Source: Hongsoonwoonella zoysiae
Lineage (GTDB): Bacteria; Pseudomonadota; Alphaproteobacteria; Rhizobiales; Stappiaceae
Direction of reading: 5' to 3'
DNA: 64,000 nucleotides
NCBI RefSeq assembly: GCF_013266695.1
Contig: NZ_JABRXF010000002.1
Coordinates: 558,001-622,000, forward strand
Notes under the pieces: model-generated
Told to the model about the DNA's origin: nothing
Seen by the model: only the letters and a program-made list of their open reading frames with translations
Database searches by the model: none
Position numbers and translations under genes: made by a program
Shown here: positions 37,825 through 47,524 of the stretch, one piece after another
Layout of the letters: every line of letters starts with the position of its first letter
Numbering within the stretch: the stretch's first letter is position 1

Positions 37825-39219
37825 ATGGAAAGACGCCTTGCTGCGGTAATGGTTTCCGACATGGCGGCATATAGCCGCCTCATGGAACTCGATGAAGACG
37901 GCATCATCGCAAGGCAAAAGAATTATCGGCGCGAAGTGATCGACCCGGCGATCGCCGCCAGACACGGACGGATCGTCAAAACCACCGGCGACGGTATGCT
38001 GGCGGAGTTTCAAAGTGCCCAGGATGCTGTTCGCGCGGCGATGGAGATCCAGGAAGCGATGTTCGAGCGGGAGGGCAGATGTCCTCCCGATGTACGCATT
38101 ACTTACCGGGTGGGAATTAACCTGGGTGATGTCGTGCATGACGACGGCGATATTTTTGGCGATGGGGTAAACGTCGCAGCCAGGCTTCAGACGATCGCAG
38201 AACCCGGTGGAATCTGCGTCTCCGATCTGGTGCACCAGACTGTCAATGAAAGAATCGGCGCAACTTTCCGCGATATGGGGCGGCAAAAGGTAAAGAATAT
38301 CTCGCGCCCGATCCGCGTCTGGCAATGGACACCGGACGCAAAGCCGGAAACGGTTCAACCGGTCGAAGAGGCATTGCAGCAAAGAGTTCGCTATGCGGCG
38401 TCAGCCGACGGCACGCATATCGCCTGGGCGAGTGTGGGAAAAGGATTGCCGGTTTTAAAAGCGCCAAACTGGCTAAACCATCTGGAATACGAATGGAAAA
38501 GCCCCTGTTGGGCGCCAATGCTCGCAGAATGCGCGCGCAGGTTTCAGTTTGTGCGTTTCGACCAACGTGGCAACGGACTCTCGGACCGGGATGTTGAAAC
38601 GATTTCACTGGATGCGATGCAAAGCGATATGAACGCGGTGGTCGCCGCTGCCGGGCTTGATCGCTTTGCGCTCCTTGGAATCTCGCAAGGAGGAGCATTT
38701 TCCATACGTTACGCCGTGGAAAATCCAGAGCGGGTCAAATGCCTGGTTTTATTGGGAGGATATGTGCGCGGGCGCCGAAATCGTCCCGATTCAGAGCAGA
38801 AAGAACTGTTCGAAATGCTGACCACTACGATCGAGCAGGGCTGGGGCTCACCCAACCCCGTGTTCAGGCATTTTTTCACATCCAGCTTCATGCCTGATGC
38901 ACCACCCGATGTGGCTAGCAGCTTTGACGAGTTGCAGCGAATTGCCACAAGTTCCGAAGCCGCGCTCAGGCTTTGGCACATGAACGCGGATGTCGATGTG
39001 ACGGAACTTGCCAGAAAAATACAGGTACCAACACTAGTTCTGCACTGCATCGGAGATCGAGTGGCACCGATCGAGGAAGGACGCCTTATTGCCCGCCTCA
39101 TCCCGAATGCGACCTTCGTGGAGCTACCGGGAAACAACCATGTGCTGCTGGAGGGCACGCCCGCCTTCGATCAATTCTTCGAGGAAATTTCGACTTTCCT
39201 CAATAAGCACGCAGAATGA
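37825..39219 (+). CDS. class III adenylate cyclase fused to alpha/beta hydrolase
   Basis: 464 residues with two domains. Residues 1-170 form a class III nucleotide cyclase with all catalytic positions: metal-binding Asp12 and Asp56, adenine-selecting Lys52 and Asp109, transition-state Asn116 and Arg120 (DIFGDGVNVAAR). The Lys/Asp pair predicts ATP as substrate. Residues about 187-464 form an alpha/beta hydrolase with nucleophile Ser287 in GISQGG, acid Asp411 in IGDRVAP and base His439 in GNNHVLL. The hydrolase may sense or process a small molecule and set cAMP output; that is inference. The protein has no membrane segment. It stands alone in an AT-rich pocket. Confidence 0.85.
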   Translation: MERRLAAVMVSDMAAYSRLMELDEDGIIARQKNYRREVIDPAIAARHGRIVKTTGDGMLAEFQSAQDAVRAAMEIQEAMFEREGRCPPDVRITYRVGINLGDVVHDDGDIFGDGVNVAARLQTIAEPGGICVSDLVHQTVNERIGATFRDMGRQKVKNISRPIRVWQWTPDAKPETVQPVEEALQQRVRYAASADGTHIAWASVGKGLPVLKAPNWLNHLEYEWKSPCWAPMLAECARRFQFVRFDQRGNGLSDRDVETISLDAMQSDMNAVVAAAGLDRFALLGISQGGAFSIRYAVENPERVKCLVLLGGYVRGRRNRPDSEQKELFEMLTTTIEQGWGSPNPVFRHFFTSSFMPDAPPDVASSFDELQRIATSSEAALRLWHMNADVDVTELARKIQVPTLVLHCIGDRVAPIEEGRLIARLIPNATFVELPGNNHVLLEGTPAFDQFFEEISTFLNKHAE

Positions 39220-39392: not shown

Positions 39393-40697
39393 CTAGTTCA
39401 GTCTTCGAAGGAAAAGCCGTTCACCCGCAAAAATCAACGTAATGCCGATCAAGCTTGCGTAAATCACCAGCACGTCCGATTGAGCCTTCACAATAAGCAA
39501 TGCACCAAGCACGATGAGATCGAAAGCAATTGCCGCTCCCAAAACGATCGCGCTGGCATCGATATCTTTGCGTAGTCGGCGCAAGATGCCCCAATGAACG
39601 GCGATATCCATGACTATGTAAAAGATCGCGCCAAGCGATGCGATCCTTCCCAGATCGAAGAAGACAGTCAAAAACATGGCCGCCACGATCGTGTATACCA
39701 ACGTATGTTTCTGGATATCTCCCGGCATACCGAAATGGCTATGGGGCACCAGCTTCATTTCCGTCAGCATAGCCAGCATGCGGGATACTGCGAAAACGCT
39801 TGCAATCACGCCCGAGACCGTCGCTACAATCGCAAACCAGACAGTAAACCAAAGGCCATAACGCCCAAATGCCGGCTTTGAGGCTTCTGCGAGAGAGTAA
39901 TCGCGCGCACGCACGATCTCTTCGATAGAAAGGTTCCCCCCGACCGCGAGCGAGACCAGTAGATAAATAACCACGCATATCAGGATGGATATGATGATGG
40001 CCCGACCCACGTTACGGTGCGGGTCGTCAATCTCCTCGCCGCTATTCGTTATCGTCGTGAAGCCCTTATAGGCAAGAACGGCAAGTGCTACGGCACCCAG
40101 AAAGCCGGTAAGCGTGGTATCTGCCGGGTCCAGGGACACACTTTGAAAAGTAAGCCCGGAGACCCACAATCCGGCCACGGCGAATACGGCGATACCGCCT
40201 ATCTTCAGGAAAGCAAGAACAAACGAAAGGGACTGAACCGCCCGGTTTCCAAGAATATTCACCAAGAATGCGAAGGACAAAAGCGCCACGCCCAATGCGG
40301 GAACCAGATAGTTCGCCTCGGAAATATCAAACAGTTGAAGGGTATAGGTCCCGAACGTTCGCGCCACGAGACTTTCGTTGATCACCATCGAAAAATACAT
40401 GAGCAGGGCCGTAGCCCCGGTCATCATTGATTTTCCGTAGGCCTTTTCCAGGAACATCGCGATGCCGCCGGCAGATGGATAGGCATTTGCCAGCTTTACA
40501 TAGGAATAGGCACTGAACCCGCTTACGACGGCTGCGGCGAGGAATGCGAGGGCAAACCATTCTCCCGCAAGCTCGGCGACTTGGCCGGTCAGGGCAAATA
40601 TACCGGCGCCGATCATGACGCCGGTTCCCATTGCTACGGCGCCAGCAAGCGTCAGGCTGTTCTTCTGGTATCGTGCGGATCGAGCGTCATTCGACAT
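39393..40697 (-). CDS. APC-superfamily amino acid permease
   Basis: 434 residues with about twelve membrane segments. The first holds the substrate-site Gly motif MGTGVMIGAGIFALTG, and GFSAYSYVKLANAYPSAGG follows, both typical of amino acid-polyamine-organocation transporters. NSGEEIDDPHRNVGRAI matches the conserved cytoplasmic loop. The substrate is unknown. It lies 65 bp downstream of a cytochrome c gene on the same strand, at the far end of the copper/cytochrome cluster, and its link to that cluster may be only positional. Confidence 0.9.
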   Translation of the reverse strand: MSNDARSARYQKNSLTLAGAVAMGTGVMIGAGIFALTGQVAELAGEWFALAFLAAAVVSGFSAYSYVKLANAYPSAGGIAMFLEKAYGKSMMTGATALLMYFSMVINESLVARTFGTYTLQLFDISEANYLVPALGVALLSFAFLVNILGNRAVQSLSFVLAFLKIGGIAVFAVAGLWVSGLTFQSVSLDPADTTLTGFLGAVALAVLAYKGFTTITNSGEEIDDPHRNVGRAIIISILICVVIYLLVSLAVGGNLSIEEIVRARDYSLAEASKPAFGRYGLWFTVWFAIVATVSGVIASVFAVSRMLAMLTEMKLVPHSHFGMPGDIQKHTLVYTIVAAMFLTVFFDLGRIASLGAIFYIVMDIAVHWGILRRLRKDIDASAIVLGAAIAFDLIVLGALLIVKAQSDVLVIYASLIGITLIFAGERLFLRRLN

Positions 40698-40762
40698 GAA
40701 CTTTGCACCATCGAATTGAGCGGAACCTCATTCGCAGGCGTCGACCAGGAAACGAAGCCCGC

Positions 40763-41242
40763 CTATCTCAAAGTCCTGGCGTTTAGCGTATCGTGTCTGT
40801 CGCGAATTTCCTTCGGCCACCGTGACTTGATGAACGACAGGACGGCGACAATTTGTGCGTCGCTCAGAACGCCTTCATACGCAGGCATTGCGGAAGAATG
40901 ATTTTCCAGTCCAGCCGCTTTCGCCACTCCATACTTGGTAATTTTAAACAACAGTTCATCCGCGTGATGCCAGGTATGACCGGAAGCGTCATGCGGTGGC
41001 GCCGGAAACAACCCGTCCGCACCTTGTTCCTGCCAGTTCGGGTGACCTTCAAGACTTTCACCGTGACAGGATGCGCAATACGCAGCGTAAATTTCACGAC
41101 CCTGAGAGATAAGGCTCGCGTTATCGGGCATCAAGCGAAACGGTCGGCTTTCCACTTCGCCAAGCGTGTAGGTTAATGCCGCAAGGCCTGCGGTCAAGGC
41201 GATTGCCGCGCAGGCTAAAGTTACGACCTTTTTCATTCCCAT
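40763..41242 (-). CDS. mono-heme c-type cytochrome
   Basis: 159 residues. A signal peptide or uncleaved anchor at about 4-26 leads into a class I cytochrome c domain with heme motif CASCH, and the axial Met is probably in SSAMPAYEGVLSD. The WPKEIRDRHDTLNA tail is common in small periplasmic cytochromes linked to copper or sulfur oxidation loci. It transfers electrons in the periplasm. A 221-bp gap separates it from the di-heme cytochrome gene upstream, so it may have its own promoter. Confidence 0.88.
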   Translation of the reverse strand: MGMKKVVTLACAAIALTAGLAALTYTLGEVESRPFRLMPDNASLISQGREIYAAYCASCHGESLEGHPNWQEQGADGLFPAPPHDASGHTWHHADELLFKITKYGVAKAAGLENHSSAMPAYEGVLSDAQIVAVLSFIKSRWPKEIRDRHDTLNARTLR

Positions 41243-41463
41243 AAGCTACTCAGATAATCCAGCGCCCTGTCTAAGGGACAAGCCGGCTGCAAGTTAATCC
41301 CGCTACTTCCAGCGCATATCCTACTTCTTTCTGGCTCATCACAATGCCCTGGCGGGAATACGAGCATCTTCGCATCCGGACCAATCGTATTTCATTGACT
41401 TTGGATAAGCCGATGAAAAGGCCCGGAAGGCGAACGGGATCCGGAACCCTTTCGAACGTTGGT

Positions 41464-42360
41464 TTACGAACCGGCGTCCGCATCCAGCAGGTAGATGGAG
41501 ATTGCCCTCAGATCTTGCTCGCTCAAAAACGCGGTGCCGTCGCGAACCACTTCCCCCATCGAGCCGCCGAATACGTCTCCGTTCGGCAAAATGCCCGTTT
41601 TCAACGCATATTTGAGCGTCTCCACGGTCCATCCATTCTGCCGCAAATGTGCTTTTGTTATCGGAGGTGACTTTCCGCCGCCGGGGAGGCCATCCGCGCC
41701 GTGTAGGCGCTGCTCCACCTGCCTAGCCCCCATGGCATTGCGCGGCGTATGACATGCGCCGCAATGAGCCGGCCCCTCGACGATATATTTGCCCCGGTTC
41801 CACAAGTCGCTTTTTGCGCGGTCCGGCTTGTATGGTTCGGGCCTGAAGAACATGCCTCGCCAAAGCTTGAGTGCTGGCCGAAAATTGAAAGGCGGAACCA
41901 GATCTTGCGGTTTCGACGGTACCGCGACCGGTGGCACCGTCTGGAAGGCTGCCCAAAGGTCCGCGATGTCCTGGTCCGTCAGCCTGGAGTAAAACGCATA
42001 TGGAAAGGCCGGATAGTAAGGCTTTCCCTCTGGCGATATTCCTTGCCGGACAGCCTTGGCGAAATCATTCACTGTCCAGGCGCCGATCCCGTGTTCCTTG
42101 TCGGTTGTCAGGTTCGGCGAGTGGAAGGTGCCGAAGTCCGTTTTCAACGCCACGCCGCCTGCCAAAGGAGCTCCGGAATTCTCAGAATCCGTGTGGCAGC
42201 CGATGCATCCCGCCATCCGCGCGAGATAGGCTCCTTTTTGCGGATTCCCGCTTCGCTCGATACCGGGCACCGAGGCCTCGATAGGCCAGACGGCAACGCC
42301 TACTGCCACTACCCCCGCAAGCGCGAGGGCAATCAACGGCAGCTTCAGTATGCGCCGCAT
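41464..42360 (-). CDS. di-heme c-type cytochrome
   Basis: 298 residues with a signal/anchor helix at about 5-28 and two heme-binding motifs: CIGCH near residue 52 and CGACH near residue 200. GGVALKTDFGTFHSPNLTTD and GKPYYPAFPYAFYSRLTDQDIADLWAAF are typical of the small subunit of alcohol or gluconate dehydrogenase cytochromes and of free di-heme cytochromes. No dehydrogenase partner is near, so it probably passes electrons from another donor to the oxidase chain. It begins 3 bp after the cytochrome c' gene. Confidence 0.9.
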   Translation of the reverse strand: MRRILKLPLIALALAGVVAVGVAVWPIEASVPGIERSGNPQKGAYLARMAGCIGCHTDSENSGAPLAGGVALKTDFGTFHSPNLTTDKEHGIGAWTVNDFAKAVRQGISPEGKPYYPAFPYAFYSRLTDQDIADLWAAFQTVPPVAVPSKPQDLVPPFNFRPALKLWRGMFFRPEPYKPDRAKSDLWNRGKYIVEGPAHCGACHTPRNAMGARQVEQRLHGADGLPGGGKSPPITKAHLRQNGWTVETLKYALKTGILPNGDVFGGSMGEVVRDGTAFLSEQDLRAISIYLLDADAGS

Positions 42361-42363
42361 TGC

Positions 42364-42966
42364 CTATTTTTTTTCCTGACGGAACTTCGTGTGGCAGGTC
42401 GAACATGTCAGCGCCACCATGTTGAAAACTCCGTCCGCGGGCATTTCGGAAAAATCCGCACTCTCGAAGCCTGAGCCGCCCCCCATCATTTCTGAGATGC
42501 CCAGCATGCCTTCGCCGCCCATCAAGGAGGCCGGGCCAGTGCCCATCATGTGCATCGTGTCAAAGCTCGCCGCTTCGCCACCTTCATGCATGCGCCCGTT
42601 CCCCGCGGCACCCTCAAGCCCCTCTGCCAGCAAGGCTAGCCGGTCTGCAAGTTCGTTGAACTCATTCCAGTTAGCCCAGATCGTATCGCGGGCTTCCGAA
42701 GGGGTCGGATTGCTGCCTTCGGGGAAAAGCTTCACCATCGTAGCTCCGGCGTGGGACCGGATCGTTCGGGCGCTGTTTCGCACGACCGCAGCATCGTATT
42801 TCGTTTCCCCTCGCATCATTGCGGAGAGCGTTTTCATCACTTTCCCCAATTCACCCATGGCATCCATGCGTTCTTTCACGATGCCGGTCGCACCTCCATG
42901 GGCAAATGCTCCCGAAGCCGCCACAAGCAAAATGCCGGCCGCGGTATAGGCCTTGAAATTCTTCAT
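42364..42966 (-). CDS. cytochrome c'-like protein (class II)
   Basis: 200 residues. Signal peptide at 1-22 (cleaved after GAFA). A four-helix region follows with RMDAMGELGKVMKTLSAMMRG and the heme motif CSTCH close to the C-terminus, the class II (cytochrome c') arrangement. A Met/Gly-rich insert (MHMMGTGPASLMGGEGMLG and on) between helices 3 and 4 is longer than usual and could bind Cu(I) through Met sulfur. The 3' end is 3 bp before the di-heme cytochrome gene. Probably periplasmic. Confidence 0.85.
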   Translation of the reverse strand: MKNFKAYTAAGILLVAASGAFAHGGATGIVKERMDAMGELGKVMKTLSAMMRGETKYDAAVVRNSARTIRSHAGATMVKLFPEGSNPTPSEARDTIWANWNEFNELADRLALLAEGLEGAAGNGRMHEGGEAASFDTMHMMGTGPASLMGGEGMLGISEMMGGGSGFESADFSEMPADGVFNMVALTCSTCHTKFRQEKK

Positions 42967-43030
42967 GAGGTCTTCTCCTGTCTATCGATCAATTTGACGG
43001 CTGATACCGTCCAGGTTTGCGGAGCGACAG

Positions 43031-43378
43031 TCAGAAAGAGCGTGGCGGGGGAGGTTCGGGAACTGGATGATGGGAAACTTCGGCGACCGACAGGAATAAC
43101 GCCGGTTTGTTTGCCTCGACCAGGAGCGCTATTTCGCATTCATGAAAAAGCGCCAGAATATTGGAGCCGCAATGCAGGGACCCGGATTCACTTTTGTGAT
43201 TTTCGGGAACGCCTGAATGGCCATGATCAGTGTGATTGTAATGCGAAAGGGAGTGCGTGTGTCCTGCGGGGCTTATTTCGCCGGCATGAGCATAAAACCC
43301 ACCCGCCATAACAAGCGACAATACCGCCAGAACCGAGAAAAAACGGCAAAAGATTATTGTTTTCCCTTTTTCGATCAC
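43031..43378 (-). CDS. His-rich exported small protein
   Basis: 115 residues if started at GTG 43378 (VIEKGKTIIFCRFF), 4 bp after the preceding cytochrome gene; an ATG further up at 43438 would overlap that gene by 56 bp and is less likely. A hydrophobic leader ends near FYAHAG. The next segment HTHSLSHYNHTDHGHSG carries seven His in seventeen residues. Two Cys follow (LHCGSNI and HECEIAL), and the end is HHPVPEPPPPRSF. It may bind copper or another metal in the periplasm or membrane. No family recognised. Confidence 0.55.
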   Translation of the reverse strand: MIEKGKTIIFCRFFSVLAVLSLVMAGGFYAHAGEISPAGHTHSLSHYNHTDHGHSGVPENHKSESGSLHCGSNILALFHECEIALLVEANKPALFLSVAEVSHHPVPEPPPPRSF

Positions 43379-43382
43379 GTCG

Positions 43383-43805
43383 TCATGATATCCCGTTGGC
43401 TCGTTGCAGCGTGCGAACGTAATCGACAATTTTGGCAATATTGTCTTGCGTCAAGCCCTCGATCGGCGGCATATCGCCGAAAGGCCAATGATGGGCGCGC
43501 GCTCCACGCGCTACGGCAAGGTAAAACGCCCCATCCGCGTGATGGCCCGGTTCATAGATTTTATGGACAAGAGGTGGGCCCATACCATCCCGACCGGCAG
43601 CGTTTTCACCGTGACAGACCGCACAGTTTGCGGAAAACAGCTTTTGCCCGGCCTCGGCGCGGCCTGTCAATTCCGGGATTCGAACAGAAACAATTGCTCC
43701 ACCAGGCGTCGCCTTTCCATCGTCCGGCTTTTCGAAGCCGAATCGCAACACGGCAAGAACGATCGCCGCAATGCCGATCAGAAGCAGGATGCGCATTCGG
43801 TTCAT
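43383..43805 (-). CDS. mono-heme c-type cytochrome, cueR-linked
   Basis: 140 residues with a signal/anchor helix at about 4-21, the heme motif CAVCH (near residue 61) and likely axial Met in FGDMPPIEGLT. Several His in GHHADGAFYLAVARGARAHHWPFGD could take part in metal binding. Its ATG overlaps the cueR stop by 4 bp, so it is made with the copper regulator. Such cytochromes are often found beside copper-resistance genes. The electron donor is unknown. Confidence 0.88.
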   Translation of the reverse strand: MNRMRILLLIGIAAIVLAVLRFGFEKPDDGKATPGGAIVSVRIPELTGRAEAGQKLFSANCAVCHGENAAGRDGMGPPLVHKIYEPGHHADGAFYLAVARGARAHHWPFGDMPPIEGLTQDNIAKIVDYVRTLQRANGIS

Positions 43806-44197
43806 GCGTCGTTGTTTCCGGCAAGATCATCAATGATCGGGCACTCCGGCCGGTCATCGCCGTTACAGTGCGAGACGAGGTGTTTTAAAGTCGCCTCAAG
43901 CGATCTCAACTCACGAATCTTTTCCCCGATCTCGGCAAGCTTCGAATTGGCAATCCTTTTGACGTCCGCACTGGAGCGTTCGTCATCTTCATAAAGCGAA
44001 AGCAGCTGGCGGCATTCGTCGATGGTGAAGCCCAGGCTCCTGGCTCGTTGAAGAAATCGAAGCCGATGAACATCCTGTATTGAATAATCGCGGTATCCGT
44101 TTTCGGCCCGACCCGGTTTGATGAGATGGATTTCCTCGTAATAACGGATCGTTTTTGCGGGGAGATTTGATTTTTCCGAGGCGTGACCGATGTTCAT
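43802..44197 (-). CDS. cueR: CueR-type Cu(I)-responsive MerR-family regulator
   Basis: 131 residues. The MerR helix-turn-helix at about 1-70 begins MNIGHASEKSNLPAKTIRYYEEIHLI. A long dimerisation helix follows. The metal loop has Cys111 and Cys119 (CNGDDRPEC, spacing C-x7-C, as in E. coli CueR C112 and C120), and Ser76 occupies the position that marks regulators of +1 ions. CueR activates copper efflux by twisting promoters with 19-bp spacers. Such promoters are present before cueR itself and before copA. It is coupled to the cytochrome gene by a 4-bp overlap. Confidence 0.93.
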   Translation of the reverse strand: MNIGHASEKSNLPAKTIRYYEEIHLIKPGRAENGYRDYSIQDVHRLRFLQRARSLGFTIDECRQLLSLYEDDERSSADVKRIANSKLAEIGEKIRELRSLEATLKHLVSHCNGDDRPECPIIDDLAGNNDA

Positions 44198-44279
44198 AGC
44201 CTTGGCTCATAACTCTTTATGCTGCAGGTATTTCCGTCTGCATGCGACCTGCCAGGTGACCGCGCATGTAGACGGAGAA

Positions 44280-44310
44280 TATAAACACCTTACCATGACT
44301 GGAAGGTCAA
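44280..44310 (-). promoter_or_regulatory. CueR-type promoter upstream of cueR
   Basis: On the minus strand: -35 TTGACC (44305-44310), then a 19-bp spacer, then TTTATA (44280-44285), with TTATAT one base further on. The dyad ACCTTCCAG-N3-ATGGTAAGGT (44287-44307) lies across the spacer. MerR-family activators need such long spacers, and CCTTCC...GGAAGG dyads are known for CueR. It suggests autoregulation of the cueR-cytochrome operon. Confidence 0.8.
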
Positions 44311-44359
44311 GGGCCGCAGCGTTAATAACCGTCCGACAGTGACGGCCAGCCTCGAAAAC

Positions 44360-44689
44360 CTATCCCTCAAGAGCCTTACGACGCTCTTCGTATTCCGCAA
44401 CATCAATTTCCCCGCGCGCTAAACGCAGCTTCAGCGTTTCCAGCGCGTCGCCGCTTTTTTTAGAAGCACTGTCACGGTCCATGAACCACCGCACGGCAAT
44501 AACGACCAGAAAGATGATCAGGCCCCAGAACAGAAACATCATACCGGCGCCCATGAAACCATATCCGTAACCATCTCCCCACATGTGGCCGTGATAGCCT
44601 CGAAAGTCATTCGACTGCGCCGCCGCAACCCCGCTCATTGCGGTAAACATAGCCATGCCGCCCATGACGATTGAAAGAAACCTATTCAT
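44360..44689 (-). CDS. SHOCT-domain membrane protein
   Basis: 109 residues from the ATG at 44689, with GGAGAG just upstream as ribosome site; the frame open to 44734 has no better start. A leader (MNRFLSIVMGGMAMFTAMSGVAAAQ) precedes a short periplasmic segment rich in Gly, Tyr, His and Met (GYHGHMWGDGYGYGFMGAG), one membrane helix at about 45-65 and the C-terminal SHOCT motif (LETLKLRLARGEIDVAEYEERRKALE). SHOCT proteins are common near copper transport genes. It lies between copA and cueR and may help copper handling. It is read in the same direction. Confidence 0.85.
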   Translation of the reverse strand: MNRFLSIVMGGMAMFTAMSGVAAAQSNDFRGYHGHMWGDGYGYGFMGAGMMFLFWGLIIFLVVIAVRWFMDRDSASKKSGDALETLKLRLARGEIDVAEYEERRKALEG

Positions 44690-44854
44690 TTCTCTCTCCA
44701 TTTTGAAATGACGAAATTCTTGCATTAAACGCACTGCTCATCAGTAGATGAATATCTTGTCGAGGGAATAACGAATTGATTTATCTCAATATTATCAAAT
44801 AACTCACTGAATTGTGAAGTGCATTGCCGGTTCTCCCGGCCTGCTTGAACGCCA

Positions 44855-47224
44855 TCAAAGCCGGATGTTCCTGAGCCTTAGAGAATTTGAGATCACGGAC
44901 ACGGAAGAAAGACTCATGGCAGCCGCCGCGATCATCGGAGAAAGAAGCGTCCCGAAAACGGGATAAAGAACGCCCGCCGCGATGGGCACGCCTAGAGCAT
45001 TGTAAACGAAGGCGAAAAACAGGTTCTGCTTGATGTTTCGGATCGTCGCTGTGGCAAGCTTGCGTGCGCGGACGATGCCATTCAAGTCACCCTTGACGAG
45101 CGTCAGTCCCGCACTTTCGACCGCGACATCCGCCCCAGTTCCCATGGCAATGCCGACATGGGCGCTGGCAAGGGCAGGGGCGTCGTTCACGCCATCGCCT
45201 GCCATTGCAACGGATTTGCCTTTTGTGAGGAATTCTTCGACCAGTGCTTGCTTGTCTTCCGGCAGCACTTCGGCCCTGACATCATCGATGCCGAGCTTGC
45301 CGGCAACAGCGCGCGCAGTGCGCTCGTTGTCGCCGGTCGCCATGATGATGGTGAGACCAAGGTCGTGCAGAGCACGGATTGCATCGGCCGTTGTCTTCTT
45401 GATCGGGTCGGCAACCGCCAGAAGCCCGATTACCTGCCCATCGGCGGCGACGAACATTGCCGTCTTTCCTTCCCCGCTCAGATCCTTTGCCCTCTCGGAG
45501 AATCTATCCGTGTTGATCCCGAGATGATCCATCATGGCCCTGTTGCCGAGTGCAACGGATTTACCCGCGATTTCACCAGTTACACCCTTGCCCGTAACCG
45601 CCTCGAATTCGGAAGCCGATGAAAGCTCCAGGTCGCGTTCACGTGCCGCTTCGACGATCGCATCAGCAAGCGGATGCTCCGAACCCCGCTCCAGGCTTGC
45701 CGCAAGCCGCAGGACATCCATTTCATCCCAGTCGTCCGCGATGACATCCGTTAGCTTCGGCTTTCCTTCCGTCAACGTGCCCGTCTTATCGACAATCAGC
45801 GTATCGACGTGGGCAAAGCGTTCCAGTGCTTCGGCGTCTTTGATCAGGACGCCGGCCTGCGCGCCACGTCCGGTCGCCGTCATTATCGACATGGGCGTCG
45901 CAAGTCCGAGGGCGCAGGGACAAGCGATAATCAGCACCGAGACCGCCGAAACAATGGCGAATATCATCGACGGTGAGGGTCCGAAGATCGCCCAGATGAC
46001 AAATGCGAAAACGGCCACAAGCACCACTGCCGGCACGAACCAGGCCGCCACACGGTCGGCAAGCCCCTGGATCGGCGCGCGTGACCTCTGCGCCTTGGCC
46101 ACCATGTCGACTATGCGGGAAAGCATCGTGTCGGCACCAACGCGTTCGGCCACCATGATGAGGGAGCCGTTCTTGTTGAGCGTGCCGCCGGTGACGCCGT
46201 CGCCGGTTTCCTTTTCGACCGGGACAGATTCCCCCGTGATCATGGATTCATCAACCGACGAGCGGCCCTCGGCGATGCTACCGTCGACGGGAATGCTTTC
46301 GCCCGGGCGGATGCGCAGCCGGTCGCCGGATTTCACCTCATCCAAAGGCACTTCTTCTTCGTTGCCCTGCGCATCGATACGCCGCGCGGTCTTCGGTGCA
46401 AGATCGAGGAGAGCTCGGATAGCCGAGCCCGTGCGTTCGCGCGCCCGCAGTTCCATAACTTGGCCCAGGAACACCAGCGCGATGATGACGGCAGCGGCTT
46501 CAAAATAGACCGGCACATGGCCGCTCTCCATCCGGAAGGAAGCCGGAAACGCGCTCGGAAAGAGTGTCGCCACGACGCTGTATCCATAGGCCGCGCCGAC
46601 GCCAAGGCCGATAAGCGTCCACATGTTCGGGCTGCGGTTGAGAAAAGAGTGATAGGCACGCTCAAAGAAAGGAACTGCCGCCCAGAGAACCACCGGTGTG
46701 GCCAAAAATAACTCTACCCAGACCGAAGCACTCTCGCCAAGCCAGGCCCGAAAAGGAATGCCGACCATCGGCCCCATCGTCAGCACGAGAAGCGGGAGGG
46801 CACAAGCCGCGCTCACCCAGAAGCGTCGTGTGAAATCGACAAGCTCCGGGTTCGGGTCTTCATCGACGGAAGGCACGCCCATCGGTTCCAGGGCCATGCC
46901 GCAAATGGGGCAGGAGCCCGGCTCGTCGCGGATGATCTCCGGATGCATCGGACAGGTGTATTCTGTGCCGGACGGCATGGCTTCCGTTTCGGGTCGATCG
47001 CCCAGATATTTCTCGGGCGTCTCGACGAACTTGTCGTGACACCTTTGGCTGCAGAAGAAATAGCGGTGGCCGGCATGGTCGTGCGACGGCTTGTCCTCGC
47101 CAGGCGTCACCTTCATGCCGCACACAGGGTCGATAACCGAGTGTGCATGCGTTCCAGGATCGCGGCCGTCGTCATGCGGACTATCGATGCTTTTCTCGGT
47201 GGAGTCGCCTTTTTGACCGTTCAT
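44855..47224 (-). CDS. copA: Cu(I)-exporting P1B-type ATPase
   Basis: 789 residues from the ATG at 47224 ([11 protein letters not shown]), with GGCGAAAAG before it; the upstream frame overlaps the promoter. The N-terminus has no classical GMxCxxC domain but a YHS domain ([12 protein letters not shown]) and a heavy-metal-binding motif (YTCPMHPEI with [10 protein letters not shown]). Membrane motif [13 protein letters not shown], phosphorylation site DKTGTLTEG and the TM7/TM8 signatures YNALGVP and [11 protein letters not shown] mark the Cu(I) subgroup (P1B-1). It pumps Cu(I) out of the cytoplasm. A CueR-type promoter sits just upstream. Confidence 0.93.
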
Positions 47225-47256
47225 CTTTTCGCCTATCAGCACATAAAACAGCCCAA

Positions 47257-47287
47257 TACATAATTGTTCCAGCGGCTGGAAGGTCAA
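47257..47287 (-). promoter_or_regulatory. CueR-type promoter of copA
   Basis: On the minus strand: -35 TTGACC (47282-47287), 19-bp spacer, -10 TATGTA (47257-47262). The spacer includes the perfect dyad TTCCAGC-C/G-GCTGGAA (47267-47281). It shares TTGACCTTCCAG with the cueR promoter and lies about 35 bp before the copA start codon, so both are probably CueR targets. Confidence 0.8.
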
Positions 47288-47434: not shown

Positions 47435-47524
47435 TGGCGGAGGCGGTGGGATTCGAACCCACGAGACGGTCTCCCGCCTGCCGGTTTTCAAGACCGGTGC
47501 CTTCAACCACTCGGCCACACCTCC
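47435..47524 (-). tRNA. tRNA-Ser (anticodon TGA)
   Basis: 90-nt class II tRNA on the minus strand. The acceptor stem GGAGGTG pairs with CGCCTCC (one G-T pair). The D arm holds GCCGAGTGG, the anticodon loop CTTGAAAAC contains TGA, a long variable arm follows (CAGGCGGGAGACCGTCTCG), and the T arm is GTGGGTTCGAATCCCAC. The 3' CCA is encoded (47435-47437). The 3' end faces the copper/cytochrome island, the usual side for integrated elements. Confidence 0.95.

Follow-up and report, generated by a model that had tools for sequence, protein, structure and literature searches.

Within a 64,000-nucleotide stretch of the Hongsoonwoonella zoysiae genome (contig NZ_JABRXF010000002.1, positions 558,001 to 622,000; hereafter the window, whose own numbering is used below), open reading frame (ORF) and domain searches reveal a copper cluster on a single (-) strand, comprising copA, a SHOCT-domain gene, cueR, a mono-heme cytochrome gene (cytA), a gene for a His-rich protein, a cytochrome c' gene, a di-heme cytochrome gene, a further mono-heme cytochrome gene (cytB) and a gene for an APC permease. 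The cluster appears to be the variant of a wider module that is free of a multicopper oxidase (MCO), because in 65 of 77 judgeable loci the next gene after the di-heme one, no more than 250 bases on, encodes an MCO; 12 loci lack this neighbour and a further 3 are not judgeable. We give about an even chance to the reading that this is a mobile, CueR-controlled copper tolerance module encoding a copper-induced periplasmic chain to which Cu(I) supplies electrons and in which the MCO is optional. The gene set, the operators, the conservation and the repeated gain or loss of the MCO are the parts of this reading backed by sequence, while the direction and order of electron flow, and Cu(I) as the donor, are what we infer. 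Detoxification of periplasmic Cu(I) is usually credited to MCOs, which need O2. A conserved, mobile CueR-linked module that occurs repeatedly with and without an MCO would offer natural pairs for asking whether cytochromes accept electrons from Cu(I) and perhaps do so at low oxygen too.

All nine genes, with their order, strand, domains and heme motifs, and the copper sensor were found as a preliminary description of the window had placed them:

47264..47287, - strand: weaker CueR-like operator TTGACCTTCCAGCCGCTGGAACAA, 5' of copA (pattern scan, 3 mismatches)
44855..47224, - strand: copA, Cu(I)-exporting P1B ATPase with YHS and HMBD domains (TIGR01511, 610 bits, cut-off 397)
44360..44734, - strand: small SHOCT-domain protein (28.0 bits, cut-off 27)
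44287..44310, - strand: CueR operator with -35 element, TTGACCTTCCAGTCATGGTAAGGT, in the gap between the SHOCT gene and cueR (1 mismatch)
43802..44197, - strand: cueR, Cu(I)-responsive MerR-family activator (TIGR02044)
43383..43805, - strand: cytA, mono-heme class I cytochrome with an N-terminal helix (domain match, model and alignment)
43031..43375, - strand: His-rich small protein (ORF opens at 43438)
42364..42966, - strand: cytochrome c' with Met-rich insert (PF01322 at 1e-21)
41464..42360, - strand: di-heme cytochrome with two CxxCH motifs (domain match and profile comparison)
40763..41242, - strand: cytB, mono-heme cytochrome (domain match and alignment)
39393..40697, - strand: APC-family permease-like protein (AA_permease_2 match, 30% identical to E. 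coli YbaT)

The overlap of cueR with cytA, likewise described earlier, was seen as a 4-base ATGA, and only 3 bases separate c' from the di-heme gene. Each mono-heme protein carries one CxxCH motif and the di-heme protein two. The ATG at 47224 is the more likely start of copA, because the TTG that opens the 810-amino-acid ORF sits inside the CueR-like operator; the domain search found no HMA domain in this CopA. The His-rich protein likely starts at the GTG at 43375, downstream of cytA, and is probably exported; it matched no Pfam family. Membership of the APC permease in the operon is uncertain.

Occurrence of the multicopper oxidase

The preliminary description had reported that no MCO is present, which holds for the cluster and for the 64-kb window. 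It does not extend to the genome: that the organism has no MCO is ruled out by an MCO gene at C2:114 kb. The surroundings of this gene (16 kb) contain no CueR box at 2 mismatches, and one 3-mismatch site lies ~6 kb off. Because the genome thus has a distant MCO without a good CueR box, the suggestion that cytochromes take the place of CueO may apply to the CueR regulon and not to the genome as a whole. As a general proposition it fails: cytochromes as general substitutes for an MCO are ruled out by the frequent adjacency noted above together with the finding of a PF07732 protein in 14 of the 15 genomes with a cluster labelled MCO-free, the window's own included. The sole genome among these 15 in which no PF07732 protein was found is that of an Osedax symbiont (L081). 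Two of the genomes labelled MCO-free (G029 and G425) have an MCO in the same locus; in the latter (L015), one of the 12 loci without an adjoining MCO, it lies ~4 kb further on.

On a tree of the di-heme protein, the strict labelling of loci (69 with an MCO, 15 without an MCO match in the retrieved DNA) gave 7 changes of MCO neighbour, at least 4 of them forced by starred branches, and a looser labelling (69 and 19) gave 10, at least 6 of them forced; the tree was built quickly and contains several long branches, and such change counts cannot separate gain from loss. The strict labelling drops L015, L119 and L122, where an MCO is found elsewhere in the retrieved DNA, and L114, which sits on a very long branch. 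The MCO therefore appears, from the trees and gene neighbourhoods, to have been gained or lost repeatedly while the cytochrome core stays. In a tree of the MCOs themselves, the genome's own protein falls within the starred group containing the cluster MCOs, being 51% identical to one of them, and is placed beside the cluster MCO of L120, a placement that rests on long branches. The MCO counts given here were not taken from that tree, in which L016, L018, L024, L027, L048 and others are labelled 'other' despite being cluster MCOs, the start chosen for them overlapping the di-heme gene.

Copper control

The cluster regulator scores 158.1 bits against the CueR equivalog TIGR02044 (cut-off 147.4). 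CueR proteins are marked by a C-x7-C copper site and by the lack of a Cys where divalent-metal sensors have one. Both marks are seen in the cluster protein (CNGDDRPEC, and the Ser in DDERSSADV), and comparison by eye places a Cys near the latter position in L165 and L167. The genome has six PF09278 matches, three of which were scored for CueR; the two others in this scored group reach 108.8 bits, below the cut-off, and carry the C-terminal Cys pair plus an additional Cys of the kind typical of divalent-metal sensors. No C-x7-C pair is visible in the frames of the three unscored regulators.

A scan for TTGACCTTCC-N7-GGAAGGT, allowing up to 3 mismatches, returned 2 sites in 64 kb against a mean of 0.16 expected (3 of 100 shuffles give two), and these fall 5' of cueR and 5' of copA. 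The CueR consensus given in the accessible text of PMC1526738 is an ACCTTCC-N7-GGAAGGT palindrome with a spacer of 19-20 bases between -35 and -10. The cueR operator combines a 1-mismatch palindrome with TTGACC; a good -10 element (TATATT) occurs at a 21-base spacer, with only TTTATA at 19. The operator at 44287..44310 is likely to be the promoter of the cueR-cytochrome operon. Copper control, as proposed in the preliminary description, is hence a well-supported prediction given the above-cut-off CueR match and the operator 5' of this operon, and copper would be expected to induce the cluster. Across 99 sources (the window, plasmids, and reference and relatives' loci; 1.87 Mb), we counted 64 CueR boxes with up to 2 mismatches, compared with 3 in one shuffle of each source; they lie mostly before copZ/copA, and many are near-copies of one another.

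The genome has a second copA at C1:1287 kb (L182 3310-5556), 46% identical to that of the cluster, with an apparent, unscored HMA domain and a 3-mismatch CueR-like box just 5'. No MerR match lies near this gene and no cueR was found beside it, and therefore the cluster CueR may serve the second copA too. Perfect CueR boxes were also seen ~1.3 kb 5' of c' in two gammaproteobacterial loci (Neptuniibacter; L074 and L076).

Conservation and mobility of the cytochrome module

The reference-genome collection yielded 362 c' relatives, from which the best 80 loci were kept (20 of them shorter than 20 kb). The di-heme gene lies directly 3' of c' in 80/80, with a gap of at most 92 bases, while cytA is found in 65, cytB in 69 and CopA or CueR in 57 of the kept loci within the retrieved DNA; since many Rhodobacterales copies are near-identical, such raw counts overstate the number of independent cases. 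The preliminary description had staked its case on conservation reaching beyond CopA-CueR. The module is conserved well beyond this pair, and that ground for rejecting the description consequently falls away. By gene neighbourhood, the module was found near putative copper-pump genes in many marine bacteria. In the plasmid collection, c' relatives occur on 92 records, 43 of which are typed conjugative, and the di-heme protein is matched at 1e-60 on 87 records. A class-wide sample gave a c' match at 1e-20 in 20 of 385 genomes, the window's own included and insert-less short forms counted. A short version, copA-cueR-cytA-c', is present in three genomes (G003, G019 and G023) of g2, a genus in the same family as the window's organism, with only copA and c' seen in G014 of that genus.

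The five plasmids examined (e.g. NZ_CP021049, NZ_CP010870 and NZ_CP045381) resemble the window in carrying relatives of c', the di-heme protein and cytB near copA. Three of these, from Rhodobacterales, have cytA and, unlike the window, an MCO between the di-heme gene and cytB; two Labrenzia/Roseibium plasmids have no MCO match between these two genes, like the window, and no cytA match. As many as 12 loci from different species encode one and the same di-heme protein, which suggests recent spread, and the c'-di-heme pair was also found in the Neptuniibacter loci and the Osedax symbiont. A CcmF homologue lies near the module in 37 of the 80 loci, and two PF01578 (CcmF/CcmC-type) proteins are encoded outside the cluster in the window's genome. 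On Rhodobacterales copper plasmids (L011, NZ_CP021049, 3495-9951, and similar loci), CcmF, DsbE, a cytochrome c biogenesis protein, CcmI, a DsbD-domain protein and L,D-transpeptidases sit beside the cytochromes.

Features of the cytochromes

An alignment of 42 c' sequences shows that His23 and His72 are invariant, and the Met-rich insert is seen in all 21 displayed rows. Judged by eye, His23 would form the mature N-terminus, after the signal-peptidase site. The c' model is predicted to be all-helical with the CxxCH in the last helix, in agreement with the four-helix bundle and C-terminal CxxCH of PF01322, and the insert is a low-confidence region of the model, as expected for a disordered loop. 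Inspection by eye of 25 lower-scoring c' relatives from the retrieved loci, for which two search patterns had given differing counts, found the N-terminal His in 20 (absent in L106, L107, L108 and L133; ambiguous in L143), and thus this His extends to a broader subfamily than the Met insert does.

Non-heme His residues conserved at 95% or more number 5 in cytA, 4 in cytB, 2 in c' and 1 in the di-heme protein. Those that are invariant are H88, H89, H105 and H106 in cytA and H84, H89, H92 and H93 (a GHTWHH motif) in cytB. The confident cytA model (mean predicted local distance difference test score, pLDDT, 90.7) is similar to class I cytochromes and, weakly, also to the cytochrome domain of the nitrite reductase 2zoo. 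When cytA is aligned to CcoP of 6xkx and 6xkw, its conserved His residues are unmatched by His, and in 8snh one His falls near H105/H106. Structure searches with cytA and cytB return class I cytochromes of many kinds, the best Foldseek match being weak (E 3e-4, root-mean-square deviation 17 Å). The additional His and Met residues of the cytochromes would, we infer, bind copper.

The di-heme profile covers the first two heme domains in the three-heme cytochrome c subunits of membrane-bound fructose, alcohol and glucose dehydrogenases (7w2j, 8gy2 and 8hdd) with a best E of 2.8e-67. Unlike these subunits, the di-heme protein has no third heme domain, as it contains two CxxCH motifs and the alignment stops after the second domain, and the window's cluster contains no dehydrogenase gene. 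In Oricola, a GMC oxidoreductase gene (L016 16424-18040) is found close to the cluster, and the di-heme protein resembles the cytochrome subunits of such dehydrogenases.

Proposed mechanism and alternatives

Under the favoured reading, a rise in Cu(I) would lead CueR to activate copA and the operon cueR-cytA-His-rich-c'-di-heme-cytB. CopA would export Cu(I), and periplasmic copper would be bound by the His-rich protein and by the Met-rich, His-terminated c'. The heme proteins would then take electrons from Cu(I), passing them from c' to the di-heme protein and on to cytA/cytB, from where they would go to the respiratory chain or, where encoded, to the MCO, leaving the less toxic Cu(II) as product. 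The Cu(I)-oxidising chain put forward in the preliminary description would correspond to these last steps.

Several points weigh against this reading. The window's genome does have one MCO gene, ~0.48 Mb from the cluster, and MCOs occur in all seven relatives checked. The enrichment of His is modest (binomial P ~0.018 for cytA and cytB, 0.17 for c'), and the -10 element of the cueR operator, as read from the sequence, fits a 19-base spacer poorly. In most Rhodobacterales loci the box precedes copZ/copA and not the cytochrome operon, and 2-mismatch boxes are not enriched genome-wide (86 + 97, against 124 + 107 for the reversed pattern). After dereplication, CopA or CueR is found in only 15 of 23 full-length loci (10-kb flanks) and is missing from 8, and neither the His-rich homologue (6/80 loci) nor the permease (4/80 loci and one plasmid) is widely kept.

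A doubtful though serious alternative is that the cytochromes are a respiratory back-up without contact with copper: copper would harm the assembly of c-type cytochromes, and CueR would induce copper-tolerant replacement carriers to the oxidases. The resemblance of cytA to CcoP domains and small electron carriers is in line with this, as is the proximity of genes annotated as CcmF, DsbE, a cytochrome c-type biogenesis protein and CcmI to the module in many Rhodobacterales loci, and the accessible part of PMC10304878 cites work on the harm that copper does to the assembly of cytochrome c. It nevertheless leaves unexplained the Met-rich insert, the invariant non-heme His residues, the His-rich protein and the presence of an MCO within the operon. 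A cupro-cytochrome role centred on c' is unlikely: here His23 and His72, both expected from the helix order to lie at the heme end of the bundle, would hold copper, with Cu(I) oxidised by the heme so as to feed respiration and the MCO as an optional outlet. It is also unlikely that the Met/His-rich heme proteins only store or hand over copper without redox turnover. The disordered Met-rich insert of c', the His-rich small protein and a DUF411 protein adjoining the cluster in L022 would suit such sequestration or chaperoning, but four heme proteins with five hemes would be a high price to pay for binding copper, and the di-heme protein, which has one conserved non-heme His, accompanies c' in every kept locus. 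A copper-induced defence against nitric oxide (NO) or peroxide, with NO bound by c' as it is by some cytochromes c', is very improbable, given that the genes adjoin copA and cueR and that the cluster proteins include no NO reductase or peroxidase above cut-off in Pfam and NCBIfam searches.

Relation to known systems

The electron-transfer module favoured here shares with the E. coli Cue system (CueR, CopA and CueO) a CueR-type activator and operator and a Cu(I) ATPase as target, and in E. coli K-12, too, an APC permease (YbaT) adjoins cueR. CueO belongs to the E. coli CueR regulon according to the accessible text of PMC1526738, whereas the CueR-linked operon of the window has four c-type cytochromes and no MCO, and its CopA bears YHS/HMBD domains. 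In the same text, Permina et al. (2006) predict CueR sites 5' of Vibrio cytochrome genes and propose a role in copper resistance. By that published description, as far as it is accessible, the Vibrio cytochromes are alike in their predicted regulation, and the window adds the four-cytochrome module, the Met-rich c' and the di-heme partner. No description of the module was found in the published literature searched, which mostly excluded subscription papers, nor does one appear in the accessible parts of PMC1526738, PMC10141476, PMC9044938, PMC10304878 and PMC6769254.

Genomic site

The cluster fills the interval between a tRNA gene and a gene at 37825-39219, the latter joining a class III nucleotidyl cyclase domain to an alpha/beta hydrolase:

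47435..47524, - strand: tRNA-Ser(TGA), at the edge of the variable site (tRNA found in the window)

Four relatives share the same tRNA-Ser together with homologues of RlpA, dacC and tmk, and the 20-kb stretches retrieved from them gave no match to the copper cluster. The window contains no second copy of the tRNA-Ser 3' end that could serve as an attachment repeat (18, 22 and 30 nt, up to 3 mismatches). Judged from these comparisons, the cluster looks like an occupant of a variable island site beside tRNA-Ser. In G001, from the same genus, a cyclase-hydrolase gene that is 89% identical lies 12 kb from the tRNA with different genes between them, which include those for an MFS protein, a protein with a neurotransmitter-gated channel ligand-binding domain and a DUF3604 protein (L161 6333-18326).

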